NCBI RefSeq assembly: GCF_003054705.1
Contig: NZ_QAYX01000023.1
Span: forward strand, 248,001 to 312,000
Source of the DNA: Opitutus sp. ER46
Lineage (GTDB): Bacteria; Verrucomicrobiota; Verrucomicrobiia; Opitutales; Opitutaceae
DNA length: 64,000 nt
Reading direction: 5' to 3'
Shown here piece after piece: positions 42,743 through 48,623 of this stretch. Under the pieces are notes generated by a model that did no database searches, was not told the DNA's origin, and saw nothing but the letters and a program-made list of their open reading frames with translations. The position numbers and the translations under genes were made by a program. Position 1 is the stretch's first letter. Every line of letters begins with the position of its first letter.

Positions 42743-42856
42743 TTTCTCTTACTCCTACTCTTCCTCTTTCTCTCCCCCGGCGCCGCCGTGCACCGGCCCG
42801 GGCGGTGCGCCCTCGAGAACGAGAACGAGAACGAGAACGAGAACGAGAACGAGAAC
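42743..42856. repeat. Hexanucleotide repeat element: pyrimidine arm, GC core, seven GAGAAC units
   Basis: Five degenerate units of the TTTCTC type (42743-42772) are followed by a GC-rich core (GGCGCCGCCGTGC onward) and by seven perfect GAGAAC units (42815-42856). GAGAAC read on the other strand is GTTCTC, so the two arms form a large imperfect inverted repeat. It fills the gap between the topoisomerase B gene and the S41 peptidase gene. The same elements recur downstream of the peptidase gene. Confidence 0.9.
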
Positions 42857-42893: not shown

Positions 42894-44120
42894 GTGAAAC
42901 ACGCCCCACGTCGTCTCGTTTCTCTCGGATTGCTCCTCCTGGCGCTTGCGGGCGTGGCGCTGCAGCCGGGCTGCGCCACGCGGCCGCGCACGCCGATCAC
43001 CGTGACCAGCCTGCCGCCGGAGCAGCGGGCGCGGGCCGAGCGGAATCTGGCAGTGTTTCACTCGGTGTGGGACCTCGTTAACCGGAAGCATTATCAGCCG
43101 CAGACCCACGGCGCGCGTTGGGAAGAAGCCGCGGCCAAGTACGGCCCGCGGGCCGCGGCCGCCGCGGACGAGCCTGCGCTCTACGTCGTGCTCAACGAGA
43201 TGCTCGACGGCCTCAACGACAGCCACACGCACGCGCTGTCGCCCCGCCGCGCGCTTGAACGGCACACGCACGAGAAGGCTCGCACCGGTTTTTCGATGGT
43301 GCGCGTGGAGCAGCAGTGGGTCGTCACCGACGTCGCGCCCGACTCGCCGGCCGGCGGCGCCGGCGTCAGTCCCGGTTGGATTGTCGTGAGCCGCAACGGC
43401 GTGCCGGTGGGCGACCAGCCGAACTTCAATGCGGGGGAAGGCGAGGAGGCGGTGTGGGTTTTCCGCGACACGCGTGACCGCGACGTGCCGGTAAGGCTCG
43501 TGGCAAAGCGGCTCTCCATCGCGGCGTTGCAGGTGGTGCGTCCGTTGCCTGACGGCTTCGTTTACCTGCGTTTCGACGCCTTTGATGCGAAGGACCGCCG
43601 CTGGCTCAGCCGGCAACTGCAGGAGCACGCGCGCGCGCCCGGCGTCGTGATCGACCTGCGCCGCAACCCGGGCGGCGAGACGTTCTCGCTCGGTATCTCC
43701 ATCGGCGAGTTCTTCGACCGGCGCGTGGACTGCGGGACCTTTGTGACGCGCGAGGGCGCGAAGAAGGTGAAGAACTCGTGGCAACTCGGGTCGGCGCGCT
43801 ACCGCGGCAAGGTCGTGGTGCTCGTCGACGCGACGAGCGCCAGCGCCGCGGAGATCTTCGCTGCGGTGCTGCAGGATCACGGCCGCGCGACAATCGTCGG
43901 ACGCAAGACCGCGGGTGCGGTGCTCGCGAGCTGGTTCTATACGCTGCCCGACGGCGGAGAGCTGCAGTTGAGCCGCGAGGATTATCGCGCCCCCCACGGG
44001 CGGCGAATCGAAGGCCACGGCGTCGAGCCCGACATCGTCGTGAAGCGAACCCTCGCCGACGTCCGGGTTGGCCGGGATCCGGACCTCGAGGCCGCGATGG
44101 CGGTCTTGCGGGGGCGTTGA
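42894..44120 (+). CDS. S41-family (CtpA/TSP-like) peptidase, probable lipoprotein
   Basis: A 408-residue exported C-terminal-processing-type serine protease, from a GTG start. The signal ends in LQPGC, a loose lipobox with Leu at -4. A helical N-domain precedes a PDZ domain (about 130-195, with WVVTDVAPDSPAGGAGVSPG). The S41 core has VVIDLRRNPGG, the serine in ATSASAAEIFAAVLQ and the lysine in VGRKTAGAV, the usual Ser/Lys dyad. The ordered segment DYRAPHGRRIEGHGVEPDIVV closes the domain. The gene is enclosed on both sides by GAGAAC-type repeat elements, and separates the two topoisomerase subunit genes together with the phosphoesterase. Confidence 0.9.
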   Translation: MKHAPRRLVSLGLLLLALAGVALQPGCATRPRTPITVTSLPPEQRARAERNLAVFHSVWDLVNRKHYQPQTHGARWEEAAAKYGPRAAAAADEPALYVVLNEMLDGLNDSHTHALSPRRALERHTHEKARTGFSMVRVEQQWVVTDVAPDSPAGGAGVSPGWIVVSRNGVPVGDQPNFNAGEGEEAVWVFRDTRDRDVPVRLVAKRLSIAALQVVRPLPDGFVYLRFDAFDAKDRRWLSRQLQEHARAPGVVIDLRRNPGGETFSLGISIGEFFDRRVDCGTFVTREGAKKVKNSWQLGSARYRGKVVVLVDATSASAAEIFAAVLQDHGRATIVGRKTAGAVLASWFYTLPDGGELQLSREDYRAPHGRRIEGHGVEPDIVVKRTLADVRVGRDPDLEAAMAVLRGR

Positions 44121-44452
44121 TCGCGCGCGCCCACAGGCGCCGCTCCTATCTTTCTCGTTCTCTTTCTCTTTCTCTTTCTCTCAAACCCGGCGCCGCCGTG
44201 CCTGCGCGGGCGGCGCGACATTACGATTTGGAGAACGACCTCGATCTCGAATCCGAATCCGAGAACGAGAACGCCTTCGGAGTGAGAGTGAAAGTGAGAG
44301 TGCTGCGCCCGGCATTTTTGCGTGCAAATTAGGCCGCCCTGAAGGGGCGGCTTGAGAGAAAGAGAAAGAGTAAGAGTAAGAGAAAGAGGGTAGCCCCCTC
44401 CGGGTTGCGTTGAGAGGGGCGGAGGGCATCGTGAGGGACTTTTCTCCCTGCC
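44121..44452. repeat. Intergenic region with second and third hexanucleotide repeat elements
   Basis: No gene is seen here. A pyrimidine tract of five TTTCTC/GTTCTC units (44151-44182) is followed by a GC core similar to the one upstream of the peptidase gene. Then come seven in-phase, partly decayed units from GAGAAC to GAGAAC (44231-44272), and four GAGTGA-type units (44280-44302). A separate hairpin GCCGCCC/GGGCGGC (44333-44351) leads into five GAGAAA/GAGTAA units (44356-44385). The units keep a 6-base phase although their sequence has diverged. Confidence 0.85.
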
Positions 44453-45658
44453 GTGCGAATCCCCCTGATCATCTTCCTCATCGTCTTCTCGAGCCTGGCG
44501 CTGACGCTCCTGTGGTGGTGGTGGGCGGATACGCGACTGCGGACGTTGCGGCGCGCCGGCTGGCTGCGGGTCGCGGTGGGATTGTTCGCCACCATCTTCC
44601 TGTCGGGCGTCACGTACTACATCCTCATGCGGCGGATGGGATGGAAATGGTCGCCGCCGGATTGGTGGGTGGCGGTGGTGATGCTGTGGGCATTGATCGG
44701 GCTGCCCCTGATGGCGCTGCCGCTCATGGACATCGCGGGTATCGCGTGGCTCGTCGGCTGGTGGCGCCGCCGCCGGCGCAAGTCGGCCCACATGCCTGCC
44801 GCGATTCCGGTCGCGGGCGAGCCGGCGCTGACACGCCGCGAGGCGCTGGCAGCGGGCATGGCGCTCGCGCCCATGGTGCTGACGTTGGGGACGGTCGGGG
44901 TGGGCCTGATCCAGAACCGGCGATTTCGCATTCGGCGGATCGAAGTCGATCTTCCGCAACTGCCCTCGGTGCTCGATGGAATGACGATTGCGCACGTGAG
45001 CGACTCGCATGTTGGCAAGTTCACCTACGGGCCGATTGTCGATCGGATTGCCCGGGCAACACTCGAACTCGACGCCGACCTCACGCTGTTCACGGGCGAC
45101 CTCATCGACAGCCGGCTTGAGGAGTTGCCCGAGGCCGTGGCGTTCCTGCAGCGGATTCACCGTCCTGGGCGCTTTCTTGCGATCGAGGGCAACCACGACC
45201 TGTTCGGCGGACGTGAGCCATTTGAGCGGGCGGTCCGCGGCGCGGGGCTCCCGCTGCTGCTGGATGAAAAGGCGACGCTGCGCGTGCGCGGTCACCCGGT
45301 GGAGGTGATCGGGCTGCGCTGGAGTTATGATGCGGCGCACCCGGATCCGCGGAACTTTGGGCGCGTGGTGGCAGGCCGCGATCCGGACGCGTTCCCAATC
45401 GTGCTCGCCCACCATCCGCATGCGTTCGACGTCGCCGCGCAGGCGGGGCTGCCGCTTACGCTCGCCGGCCACACCCATGGCGGGCAACTCATGCTGACGC
45501 CGGAGTTCGGGGCGGGCCCGATGCTCTTCCGCTACTGGTCCGGTTTGTACCGGCAAGGCGCGGCGCGGCTCGTCGTGAGCAACGGCGTCGGCAACTGGTT
45601 TCCCCTTCGGACCGCGGCACCGGCGGAGATCGTTCATCTGACGCTGCGCGCCAGATGA
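44453..45658 (+). CDS. Membrane metallophosphoesterase (YkuE/YaeI-like)
   Basis: A 401-residue calcineurin-like phosphoesterase, GTG start. The N-terminal 160 residues hold three or four hydrophobic segments (from RIPLIIFLIVFSSLALTLL; YYILMRRMGW; VVMLWALIGLPLMALPLM) and an arginine pair before LAAGMALAPMVLTLGTVGV. The catalytic domain carries all dimetal motifs: HVSDSHVGK, FTGDLID, EGNHDLFGG, LAHHPHAFD and AGHTHGGQL. Family members act on UDP-diacylglucosamine or other phospholipid or peptidoglycan-precursor substrates, but the exact substrate is not determined here. Its stop codon TGA is embedded in the first unit of a heptanucleotide repeat. Confidence 0.9.
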   Translation: MRIPLIIFLIVFSSLALTLLWWWWADTRLRTLRRAGWLRVAVGLFATIFLSGVTYYILMRRMGWKWSPPDWWVAVVMLWALIGLPLMALPLMDIAGIAWLVGWWRRRRRKSAHMPAAIPVAGEPALTRREALAAGMALAPMVLTLGTVGVGLIQNRRFRIRRIEVDLPQLPSVLDGMTIAHVSDSHVGKFTYGPIVDRIARATLELDADLTLFTGDLIDSRLEELPEAVAFLQRIHRPGRFLAIEGNHDLFGGREPFERAVRGAGLPLLLDEKATLRVRGHPVEVIGLRWSYDAAHPDPRNFGRVVAGRDPDAFPIVLAHHPHAFDVAAQAGLPLTLAGHTHGGQLMLTPEFGAGPMLFRYWSGLYRQGAARLVVSNGVGNWFPLRTAAPAEIVHLTLRAR

Positions 45659-45691
45659 AGGCTGAAAGCTGAAGGCGGAAGGCTGAAACTG
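45657..45691 (+). repeat. Heptanucleotide repeat, GAAGGCT type, five units
   Basis: Units GAAGGCT, GAAAGCT, GAAGGCG, GAAGGCT, GAAACTG run without gaps and begin within the TGA stop of the phosphoesterase gene. The unit belongs to the same family as the 24 heptamers inside the topoisomerase A gene 0.7 kb downstream. Confidence 0.8.
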
Positions 45692-45815: not shown

Positions 45816-45880
45816 CGGAATAATGTCCAGATACTCGGGAATAATGTCCAGATACTGGCGCGATAATTTCCGGATACTCC
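45816..45880. repeat. Three 21-bp direct repeats (iterons)
   Basis: Two copies share GGAATAATGTCCAGATACT exactly, 21 bp apart, and a third degenerate copy (GATAATTTCCGGATACTCC) follows at 22 bp. Multiple short repeats of this kind occur at transposon ends, as protein-binding arrays, or at replication origins. Which applies here is unknown. Confidence 0.75.
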
Positions 45881-46034: not shown

Positions 46035-46295
46035 CAATCGATCCGTTTCTGGAATCGGTGTTTCTGGCGTCAGGTGTCCATCCGTTGTCGCGCTCCAGCC
46101 CGCGGCGGTAAGCGCCGGATTTTGGCGGACGACACGCATCTCGCTGCCTCTCAAGCACGGTTTTCCTTTTGCGACTTCTGCGCGTTTTCGAGGCCGCTCG
46201 CGCTCGGATCCTCGCAGGTATGTGGGCTGAGCGGTCGCTTGACGTGCGCCGCCGCCGCGTGACACCGTGCCCGTTTTCAACCGTCCCGATAAGCG

Positions 46296-48623
46296 ATGCC
46301 GAAGAAGAAACCGTCCTCCGATCAACCTGAGCTGCCGCTGGGCAATGACGTGCAGAAGCCGGAGGCCGGAAGCCGGAAGCCAGAAGCCGGAGGCCAGAAG
46401 CCGGAGGCCGGAAAGCAGAAGCCAGAGGCAGGAAGCCGGAAGCCCGAGGACGGAGGCCGGAAGCCGGAGGCCGGAAAGCAGAAGCCAGAGGCAGGAAGCC
46501 GGAAGCCCGAGGACGGAGGCCGGAAGGAAGGCCCCGAAGGCGGAACGCTGGAAACGGCCGCGAAAGAAGAAGCGCAGCCGGCCGGGCACGAAGAGGGCAA
46601 CGGCAATGGCGACGCGTTGCCGGCGGCGGCGTTGGCGCCGGCCCGCGTGGGCAAGGTGCAGGATGAGCAGGCCCCGCTCGCGGAACACTACCGCAACTGG
46701 TTCCTCGACTATGCCAGCTACGTGATTCTCGACCGCGCGGTGCCGCACATCGATGATGGCCTCAAGCCGGTGCAGCGCCGCGTTCTCCACACCATGTGGG
46801 AGATGGACGACGGTCGTTTTCACAAGGTCGCCAACATCGTGGGCGCCACGATGCGTTTTCACCCGCACGGCGACGCCTCGATCGGCGCCGCGCTCGTGGG
46901 CATCGCGCAACGCGGCTGGCTGATCGAGCCGCAGGGCAATTTCGGCAACACCCTCACCGGCGACGACGCGGCCGCGCCGCGTTACATCGAGGCGCGGCTG
47001 ACCGGCTTCGCGAAGGAGGTCCTGTTCAATCCGAAGACCACGACCTGGCAGCTCAGCTACGACGGCCGCGCGAAGGAGCCGGTCACGCTGCCGGCCAAGT
47101 TCCCCATCGTGCTGCTCGAGGGCGCCGAGGGCATCGCCGTCGGCCTCTCGACGAAGATCCTGCCGCACAATTTCAACGACCTCTGCCGCGCCGCCATCAA
47201 TCACCTGCAGGGGAAAACCTTCCGGATCTTCCCCGATTTTCCGACGGGCGGCATCGCCGATTTCTCGGAGTACAACGACGGCGAGCGCGGCGGCAAAGTG
47301 AAGATCCGCGCCCGGATCGAGCAGCGCTCGAAGTACCTGCTCGCGATCACCGAGCTGCCGTTCGGCCTCTCCACCGAGGCGCTCATCGAGTCCATCCTCG
47401 CCGCCAACGCGAAGGGGAAGATCAAGATCAAGCACGTCGACGACAACACCGCCGACAAGGTCGAGATCCTCGTCCATCTCCCGCAGGGCGCCGACGCCGA
47501 GCAGCTCATCCAACAGCTCTACGTCTTCACGAGCTGCCAGCTGAACATCTCGCCCGCGGCGTGCGTCATCGTGCGCGACGAGCGCGGCAACGACCGTCCG
47601 CAGTTCCTGGGCGTGCGCGACATCCTCAAGCGGGCGGTCGAGCAGACGCGCGAGCTGCTGAAGCGCGAACTCGAGATCAAGCTCGAGGAACTCGAGCAGC
47701 AGTGGCACTGGGACTCGCTCGAGCGGATTTTCATCGAGGAGCGCATCTATCGCCGCATCGAAAAGTCGAAGACCTGGGAAAACGTGCTCGAGGAGATACG
47801 CGAGGGATTGAAGCCCTTCCTCAAGCAGCTCCGCCGCCCGGTGACGGAGGATGACATCGTCCGCCTCACCGAAATCCGCATCAAACGCATCTCGGCCTAC
47901 AACCGGTTCCAGGCCGACGAGGCGATCACCAAGATCGAGGCGGGCATCAAGGAGACGAAGGCCAACCTGAAGAACCTCACCGGCTACACGGTCGCCTGGT
48001 ACGAGATGCTGCAGGAAAAGTACGGCAAGGGGCACAAGCGTCGCACCGAGTACGACGAGATCGAGCAGATCAATGCCGCAGAGGTCGTCTCGGCCAACCA
48101 GCGCCTGTATGTGAATCGCGAGGATGGCTTCATCGGCCTCAACTGGCGCCAGCACGAGTTCGTCACCGAGTGCACCATCCTCGACAGCGTGCTGTGCATC
48201 ATGCGCGACGGCTCGCTGAAGGTGAGCAAGGTGGCCGACAAGGTCTTCATGGGCCGCGATATCATCCACTGCGCGGTTTTCCCGAAGGACGGCGACCCGA
48301 ACTTTTACACCATGGTGTACCAGGACAAGGACACCGGGAAGGCGTTCGCCAAGCGCTTCCAGATTGGCGGCCTCTCGCGCGACAAGCTCTATCCGCTGAC
48401 CAAGTCCGAGGGTTCGAAGATCGTCTATCTCGACGTGAGCAAGACCGAGAAGGAGATGCCGCAGAAGCTGATGATCTACATCGACGGCCGCAGCGGCGCG
48501 CGGGTGCGCGAGTTCGAGTTCGAGGTCGCGCACGTGCCGATCAGCTCGCGCAACGCCAAGGGCCTTACCGTCTCGAAATGGCCGGTGAAGGACGTGCGGC
48601 GCGTGGACCTGGCACTGCGCTGA
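46296..48623 (+). CDS. Type IIA topoisomerase DNA-cleavage subunit (ParC/GyrA-like) with a heptapeptide-repeat N-terminus
   Basis: A 775-residue cleavage/religation subunit, the likely partner of the ParE-like protein at 40872. The conserved core starts near residue 125 (HYRNWFLDYASYVILDRAVPH). It includes LKPVQRRVLHTMWEM, FHPHGDASIG, the catalytic Tyr230 in APRYIEARLT, LLEGAEGIAVGLSTKILPHN and SLERIFIEERIYRRIE. The C-terminal region (about 600-775) is short and lacks a GyrA box, which favours a topoisomerase IV-like role. Residues 21-76 are eight tandem heptapeptides of the KPEAGSR type encoded by a 7-nt microsatellite, followed by an acidic/Ala-rich linker. The first 20 residues (PKKKPSSDQPELPLGND) precede the repeat. 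Confidence 0.9.
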   Translation: MPKKKPSSDQPELPLGNDVQKPEAGSRKPEAGGQKPEAGKQKPEAGSRKPEDGGRKPEAGKQKPEAGSRKPEDGGRKEGPEGGTLETAAKEEAQPAGHEEGNGNGDALPAAALAPARVGKVQDEQAPLAEHYRNWFLDYASYVILDRAVPHIDDGLKPVQRRVLHTMWEMDDGRFHKVANIVGATMRFHPHGDASIGAALVGIAQRGWLIEPQGNFGNTLTGDDAAAPRYIEARLTGFAKEVLFNPKTTTWQLSYDGRAKEPVTLPAKFPIVLLEGAEGIAVGLSTKILPHNFNDLCRAAINHLQGKTFRIFPDFPTGGIADFSEYNDGERGGKVKIRARIEQRSKYLLAITELPFGLSTEALIESILAANAKGKIKIKHVDDNTADKVEILVHLPQGADAEQLIQQLYVFTSCQLNISPAACVIVRDERGNDRPQFLGVRDILKRAVEQTRELLKRELEIKLEELEQQWHWDSLERIFIEERIYRRIEKSKTWENVLEEIREGLKPFLKQLRRPVTEDDIVRLTEIRIKRISAYNRFQADEAITKIEAGIKETKANLKNLTGYTVAWYEMLQEKYGKGHKRRTEYDEIEQINAAEVVSANQRLYVNREDGFIGLNWRQHEFVTECTILDSVLCIMRDGSLKVSKVADKVFMGRDIIHCAVFPKDGDPNFYTMVYQDKDTGKAFAKRFQIGGLSRDKLYPLTKSEGSKIVYLDVSKTEKEMPQKLMIYIDGRSGARVREFEFEVAHVPISSRNAKGLTVSKWPVKDVRRVDLALR
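46355..46522 (+). repeat. Coding heptanucleotide microsatellite, 24 units of GAAGCCG type
   Basis: Twenty-four consecutive 7-bp units with consensus GAAGCCG lie in frame within the topoisomerase A gene. Three units (21 bp) encode one heptapeptide, giving eight KPE[AD]Gxx repeats. All three forward frames are open across the tract. It includes a perfect 63-bp tandem duplication (46398-46460 and 46461-46523). Confidence 0.95.

Follow-up and report, generated by a model that had tools for sequence, protein, structure and literature searches.

A heptanucleotide array in the N-terminal linker of a ParC/GyrA-type gene as a probable in-frame copy of a dispersed IVP-element arm repeat

The window (the whole 64,000-nucleotide stretch of Opitutus sp. 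ER46 DNA analysed here; G000:C23:248001-312000 of the 5.71-Mb host genome G000) contained a heptanucleotide array in frame near the 5' end of a gene for a ParC/GyrA-type topoisomerase subunit A, and this tract was probably (at a rough probability of 70%) a tolerated in-frame copy of the dispersed arm repeat of an "IVP element". Such an element would be composed of a PF05635 four-helix-bundle gene (IVP gene) located between two inverted arrays with a unit of usually 7 bp, and these two arms may pair as a long hairpin. The ParC tract would have originated in two steps: (i) one of the host's dispersed heptanucleotide arrays was copied in frame into a length-tolerant N-terminal linker and (ii) the tract later grew by a frame-keeping 63-bp duplication. 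The insertion would have been tolerated because the unit is stop-free in every sense frame and encodes a hydrophilic heptapeptide, and the resulting KPEAGSR stretch is probably without a separate function in ParC. The features in the window are listed in Table 1.

Table 1. Features of the topoisomerase gene and its upstream spacer, in window coordinates
Feature	Position	Strand	Remarks
Short AAGGCTG-type heptamer array	45656..45687	+	Begins at stop codon of upstream metallophosphoesterase gene (44453-45658); sense
ParC/GyrA-type topoisomerase subunit A gene, 775 aa	46296..48623	+	PF00521 over residues 147-568; PRK12758; orthologues
Conserved N-terminal motif MPKKK..DQPELPL (residues 1-15)	46296..46340	+	Common to nearly all relatives read
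Hypervariable linker with array (residues 16-129)	46341..46682	+	Relatives differ in length and sequence
Heptanucleotide array	46355..46526	+	24 whole units (46355-46522) plus one partial; codes residues 21-76
63-bp tandem duplication, copy 1 (9 units, 21 codons)	46401..46463	+	63/63 identical to copy 2
63-bp tandem duplication, copy 2	46464..46526	+	63/63 identical to copy 1

The product of the topoisomerase gene exceeded the family cut-offs of PF00521 (352 bits vs 31) and NCBIfam PRK12758 (945 vs 780), in agreement with the earlier note, which had placed the repeat upstream of the conserved core of a predicted ParC/GyrA-type subunit; a second homologue, presumably GyrA, was found at G000:C24:600870 (36% identity, open frame of 869 aa). 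N-terminal extensions were collected from 110 loci (the relatives are Opitutaceae); whole-genome relatives supplied 30 of them, and named GTDB records, with partly overlapping species, the other 80; the anchor pattern missed 8 of the 110 (L018 and L021 among them were still read otherwise), and L137 was incomplete. In nearly all relatives read, the linker was flanked by the start motif M-[PA]-K-[KR]..DQ[PSA]ELPL and the core entry ..VQ-x-E-x-x-PLA-x-x-YR-x-W, and the complete extensions ranged from 64 to 135 aa, that of the window being the longest. Since the start motif was common to nearly all of these relatives, the ATG at 46296 looks inherited. The idea that an alternative start rescues translation thus gained no support, as only the linker between the shared start motif and core differed.

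The tract was called by TRF at period 7 (24.6 copies, 0% indels) and also at period 21 and period 63 (94% match), and TRF together with the unit count bore out the 24 gapless in-frame heptamers described before. Translation of 46356-46523 gave, in this order, KPEAGSR, KPEAGGQ, KPEAGKQ, KPEAGSR, KPEDGGR, KPEAGKQ, KPEAGSR, and KPEDGGR, which confirmed the eight KPEAGSR-type heptapeptides. Three forward frames were open through the tract, as the earlier note had also stated: 46293-48623 (that of the topoisomerase gene), 46243-46725, and 46349-46666. The tract contained no T, and therefore a stop codon was impossible inside it in any forward frame; the two other frames ended at 46725 and 46666, and thus a net gain or loss of one or two units would stop translation at or before the core entry, which upheld the claim that such a change shifts the frame ahead of the core. 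With 7 and 3 being coprime, this arrangement could speak for a contingency locus, in which changes of unit number would toggle ParC or select between N-termini, but the tract did not display near-perfect units, since eight unit types were found among the 24 heptamers (seven GAAGCCG, five GAGGCCG, three GAAGCCA, four types with two each, and one GAGGCCA); moreover, the visible duplication was frame-keeping, the start was common to relatives, and the gene is probably essential, and a contingency locus is therefore scarcely credible. The two identical 63-bp copies comprised 21 codons each, so that this growth step preserved the reading frame; the exact in-frame duplication fits the suggestion that the tract is held in triplets. 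Rfam, applied to the whole window at the gathering threshold, gave 0 matches.

Heptamer arrays of other units recurred in the same linker of relatives. Period-7 DNA was detected in 11 of the 79 other distinct ParC linkers (the 79 included the incomplete and empty L137) at a level reached by at most 2 of 500 codon shuffles, with about 0.5 linkers expected: (i) L130, L115, L134, L078, L038, and L082, with 0 shuffles as high; (ii) L110, L139, L100, and L097, with 1; and (iii) L145, with 2. The heptamer units differed from species to species. This per-linker shuffle test was relied on because the pooled lag autocorrelation of the 79 linkers was unspecific for period 7 (z 2.4 at lag 7, 5.7 at lag 14, and 5.0-6.7 at lags 6, 8, and 9). 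Inverted pairs within the linker were present in 8 of the 79 at a score that none of 40 shuffles reached (about 2 expected); five of the eight (L011, L114, L123, L126, and L104) were outside the period-7 set, and only L130, L115, and L145 passed both tests.

Including ParC, five genes of the host genome contained internal in-frame arrays, the other four encoding an HrpA-type helicase (L216), an HTH_20 protein (L198; which we take to be GbsR-like), an HDOD-sigma70 fusion (L213), and a DUF3667 protein (L154); three further arrays extended across gene ends and gave C-terminal tails in L192 (Hsp33 domain), L199 (Cys/Met enzyme), and L201 (no family). A 33-bp stretch following the array was common to the HrpA and HTH_20 insertions with one mismatch, and thus at least these two inserts contained more than the array. 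A large dispersed repeat of CACGAAGAGGCACGAAAAGGCACC type was also seen in L198 (2438-3605, 4407-6125, and 6477-7332), with several copies on both strands. The HrpA query gave 30 loci, 19 of which (host genome included) were readable between LLEELGA and ARLPVDP, the 11 without a motif match being mostly weaker homologues. Period-7 inserts of 37-92 aa were identified in 6 of the 19 readable HrpA loops (at most 2 of 500 shuffles as high), namely those of the host genome and of five relatives with other units; the remaining 13 loops measured 10-26 aa, which in eight cases left too little sequence for the period test. All five internal coding arrays of the host genome displayed the hydrophilic KPEAGSR-type orientation, as would be seen if the tail had been selected in ParC for a function such as DNA or partner binding; however, this orientation bias is expected from tolerance alone, the linker was unconserved among relatives, and similar peptides were present in four unrelated proteins, which makes selection for function highly improbable.

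Under the reading of the ParC tract as a tolerated copy, its source would be the family of arrays dispersed in the host genome. The exact double unit occurred 48 times in this genome vs 2 for the reversed control; the degenerate triple unit occurred 89+75 times forward vs 66+73 for its reversed control, the high value of which may reflect sibling repeats such as CGGAAGG, and because that control was nearly as high, the degenerate counts were not used as evidence. At the score threshold of at least 20, nine period-7 arrays were found in 864 kb of the host genome (40 sampled stretches plus the window) vs none in one order-1 Markov simulation, and the ParC tract had the top score of the nine. The interpretation in the earlier note was supported in part: the tract does lie in a ParC/GyrA homologue, but it is not a private microsatellite, being one of a dispersed array family. 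The rival that slippage on a short stretch native to parC created it, with no relation to the other arrays, could draw on its tandem structure and exact 63-bp internal duplication, both signs of local growth, but local growth after arrival would explain the duplication, and arrays of the ParC unit family were found by the dozen outside parC, including four that lay in frame within unrelated genes; an origin wholly within parC is hence improbable.

The 66 family arrays classed (from the 864-kb sample plus 31 stretches picked for holding the pattern) were mostly intergenic in 60 cases and mostly coding in 6, relative to uncurated gene calls of our own codon-usage caller (631 genes, 88% coding). 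The GAAGCC strand pointed away from the nearest gene in 51 of the 60 intergenic arrays (35 sense after a stop and 16 antisense before a start), the other 9 breaking this rule, and the rule held for 28 of 32 single arrays. Fourteen spacers carried two arrays each, with 12 pairs inward-facing, 2 parallel, and 0 outward; the genes on either side of the inward pairs were tandem in 6 cases, convergent in 4, and divergent in 2. Two other kinds of repeat were observed in the window: (i) hexamer arrays (CGAGAA, TCTTTC, and AGAGAA types) at 42814-42856, 44149-44181, and 44355-44388, which were situated to both sides of an S41 peptidase gene (42894-44120) and within the next spacer, in inverted orientation, resembling the hexamer arms of the IVP loci L223 and L225, and (ii) a 21-22-bp repeat AATAATGTCCAGATACTCG x3 at 45816-45879, with similar stretches in several other spacers of the genome.

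One inward array pair (L217/L222) enclosed a PF05635 gene (98 bits) between lysC and thrC (gene names according to our own reading of the products). This locus, L222, had the PF05635 ORF between complementary arms of period 7 (arm score 74) and lay outside any 23S rRNA gene; the PDB relatives of its protein were 2rld and 2gsc. Eight PF05635 places were found in the host genome, seven of them above the cut-off, and inverted short arrays, each with its own unit, were recognized by eye at most of them. The arm units recurred in the 864-kb sample at the following numbers of places, relative to the reversed arm: L222, 9 vs 0; L220, 2 vs 0; L227, 3 vs 0; L221, 0 vs 0; L224, 9 vs 0, and L226, 3 vs 0 (own locus counted in both); L223, 33 vs 10; and L225, 24 vs 24.

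The arm test scored the best local match between the 250 bp upstream of an IVP gene and the reverse complement of the 250 bp downstream, with a threshold of at least 26. It was applied to 76 of 77 Opitutaceae loci (the incomplete L260 being dropped), 59 of them non-redundant, in a non-random sample leaning to top PF05635 scores: 49 of the 59 had inverted arms vs 4 with direct ones (p=7e-17), relative to 221 of 3422 mismatched pairs and 19 of 540 other genes of the host-genome sample. The best arm period of the 49 inverted loci was 7 in 40, 8 in 5, 6 in 3, and 13 in 1. This non-redundant test replaced a first one (14 of 37 IVP loci at threshold 40), because that threshold was strict and its mismatched pairs included copies of one site. 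A separate set of 27 IVP loci gave 21 inverted and 0 direct, and it was not counted as independent since several of its loci repeated earlier genomes (L331/L242, L330/L232, L332/L244, and L335/L256 had equal coordinates). Across the phylum, inverted arms were found at 19 of 26 IVP loci (26 usable of 27), direct ones at 3, and matches in 26 of 650 mismatched pairs; the period of the 19 was 7 in 15 and 8 in 4. For plasmids outside the phylum, 16 of 21 records with a PF05635 match were read, the rest being near-duplicates by organism: inverted arms were present at 10 of the 16 (three from Nostoc and one each from Anabaena, Calothrix, Picosynechococcus, Aulosira, Stanieria, Azospirillum, and Riemerella) and direct ones at 3, and 95% of the 240 mismatched plasmid pairs scored at most 24 (highest 51). 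Most of the PF05635 loci examined thus had inverted short-period arms, and such loci came from four phyla, the two beyond Verrucomicrobiota and Cyanobacteriota being represented by one locus each; detectable inverted arms were absent from 10 of 59 Opitutaceae, 7 of 26 phylum-wide, and 6 of 16 plasmid IVP loci. The open-access papers listed did not include a link of PF05635 to short tandem arrays, which is weak evidence of novelty.

Other mobile genes of the host genome (14 usable: 2 reverse transcriptases and 12 Y1_Tnp; L416 incomplete) displayed no period-7 arms, and the inverted ends found at two of the 14 (L415 and L422) had a REP-like look and not period 7. Thirteen Y1_Tnp (RAYT-like) matches, several near-identical, were observed in L415-L427, with REP-like palindromes at the ends of L415. 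Four plasmid IVP genes, L431, L435, L437, and L428 (Anabaena sp. 90, Pseudanabaena galeata, Picosynechococcus sp. PCC 7003, and Nostoc edaphicum, respectively), were seen within operon-like gene rows, flanked by cas6 and cas4 on the two sides (two plasmids), by cas10 and a cmr3-type gene, or by ribonucleotide reductase subunits.

The ParC unit matched the arms of the own-genome IVP locus L222. Among 38 IVP loci compared (8 of the host genome and 30 of 11 other genomes, with 2-3 IVPs each), L222 was the best arm match of the ParC tract, with a score of 115, and the best of the 30 other-genome loci reached 31. An own-genome IVP beat those of all other genomes for only 3 of 12 ParC linkers (those of the window, L038, and L100), and the linkers of L130 and L134 matched an IVP of another genome clearly better than their own; with an own-genome match in only 2 of the 11 other linkers, few IVPs having been examined, unit identity is no general rule. 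Arms were common to 27 of 48 pairs of related IVPs (at least 60% identity, different sites) vs 49 of 1706 less related pairs, and the rank correlation over 1756 IVP pairs was no higher than 0.096, a value that 10 of 2000 permutations attained; related IVPs were mostly at one same site, and the support for mobility thus rests on two clades.

Of 30 loci, 29 allowed the lysC-thrC spacer to be read, and this spacer displayed three states: (i) an IVP gene plus arms in three loci (L297, L307, and L322); (ii) an inverted pair of other units with no IVP gene in several loci, recognized by eye in several species (e.g., L298, L300, L301, L308, L302, L304, and L306); and (iii) a near-empty spacer in L320, L321, L323, L325, and L326, with 64-65 bp to the anchor, about 54 of which were already thrC. 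The IVP proteins from this site were each other's closest among the IVPs compared, and hence the site was either filled at an early stage and then emptied many times or is one to which the element homes. The array pairs without IVP gene, that of the relative L298 folding at z -7.1, fit another explanation as well, in which the arrays serve the host at gene edges as signals in RNA or DNA (hairpin terminators or RNase III sites), hairpins that already existed captured IVP genes or had them inserted between their arms, and an accident produced the ParC copy; in its favour, a stop codon was no more than about 20 bp from the beginning of many family arrays in the host genome. However, 2 of the 12 inward pairs were between divergent genes, where a terminator role makes little sense, and every IVP locus had its own unit in both arms. 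An origin as host signals is a serious but unlikely alternative.

Returning to the IVP element as the source of the ParC tract, the solo arrays and array pairs would stem from such elements and would have spread through the genome by copying, and the IVP protein may recognise the arms and drive their copying or upkeep. As a tentative generalization, less likely true than false, bacterial heptamer arrays might be hairpin arms or remains of minimal mobile elements with an Avd-like IVP as the sole gene: the IVP would recognise its own unit and, by means of a polymerase or reverse transcriptase that the host supplies or that is borrowed, copy the arms into spacers and now and then, in frame, into coding sequences such as parC, and both arms would drift in concert. 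Only two reverse transcriptases, both of group II type, were found in the host genome. Both the heptamer arrays of bacteria and the PF05635 family have long lacked an explanation, and the bracketing suggests a testable common origin for them; it would offer a reason for the location of arrays at gene edges with fixed polarity, and it would explain heptapeptide repeats in the topoisomerase, the helicase, and other proteins. Annotators should bear in mind that a KPEAGSR-like stretch may stem from inserted DNA and need not be a domain.

Rickettsia palindromic elements, which are palindromic units of defined sequence located in frame in unrelated protein genes, resembled the arrays described here in the in-frame insertion into unrelated genes (five in the host genome), but the ParC tract was a one-arm tandem array with neither a palindromic unit nor a special fold (z 0.23 for 46355-46500). 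As a single arm enclosing no ORF, the tract was not itself a whole IVP element, and its tandem 7-bp unit together with many dispersed, mostly intergenic arrays placed it among the dispersed heptameric repeats, which in cyanobacteria go by the name STRR. In 23S rRNA intervening sequences, an S23/IVP ORF lies between complementary stem-forming ends and the sequence is excised by RNase III (PMC4990558); the PF05635-type ORF between complementary ends was a shared trait, but those sequences reside inside 23S rRNA, whereas the IVP elements resided in spacers of protein genes and their ends were short tandem arrays. PF05635 is related to Avd of diversity-generating retroelements, according to PMC10053308; the L222 IVP protein was below the Avd cut-offs (bAvd, 36.3 bits vs 40; DivGenRetAVD, 35.2 vs 80). 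The heptameric SSRs of Xanthomonas and Nostoc (GGGNATC type), as presented in the accessible portion of PMC4692102, are dispersed and mostly non-coding, lie within 50 bp in sense after stops and in antisense before starts, and form convergent plus/minus pairs (70 in Xcc and 75 in Xac). The 7-bp unit, dispersal, mostly non-coding location, and polarity agreed with those of the host-genome arrays, while the G-quadruplex unit of those heptamers was not shared; that portion of the text ties no gene to the heptamers, gives no mobile-element association, and contains neither "four-helix" nor XCC0516. The TAACTGA heptamers of Beggiatoaceae (PMC4679880) consist of a single invariant unit that carries stops in all forward frames and are proposed translational regulatory sites, unlike the variable, stop-free units of ParC type; they are mostly intergenic, and some form in-frame heptapeptides at the protein periphery, so that heptamers within coding genes, as in the ParC linker, have a precedent.
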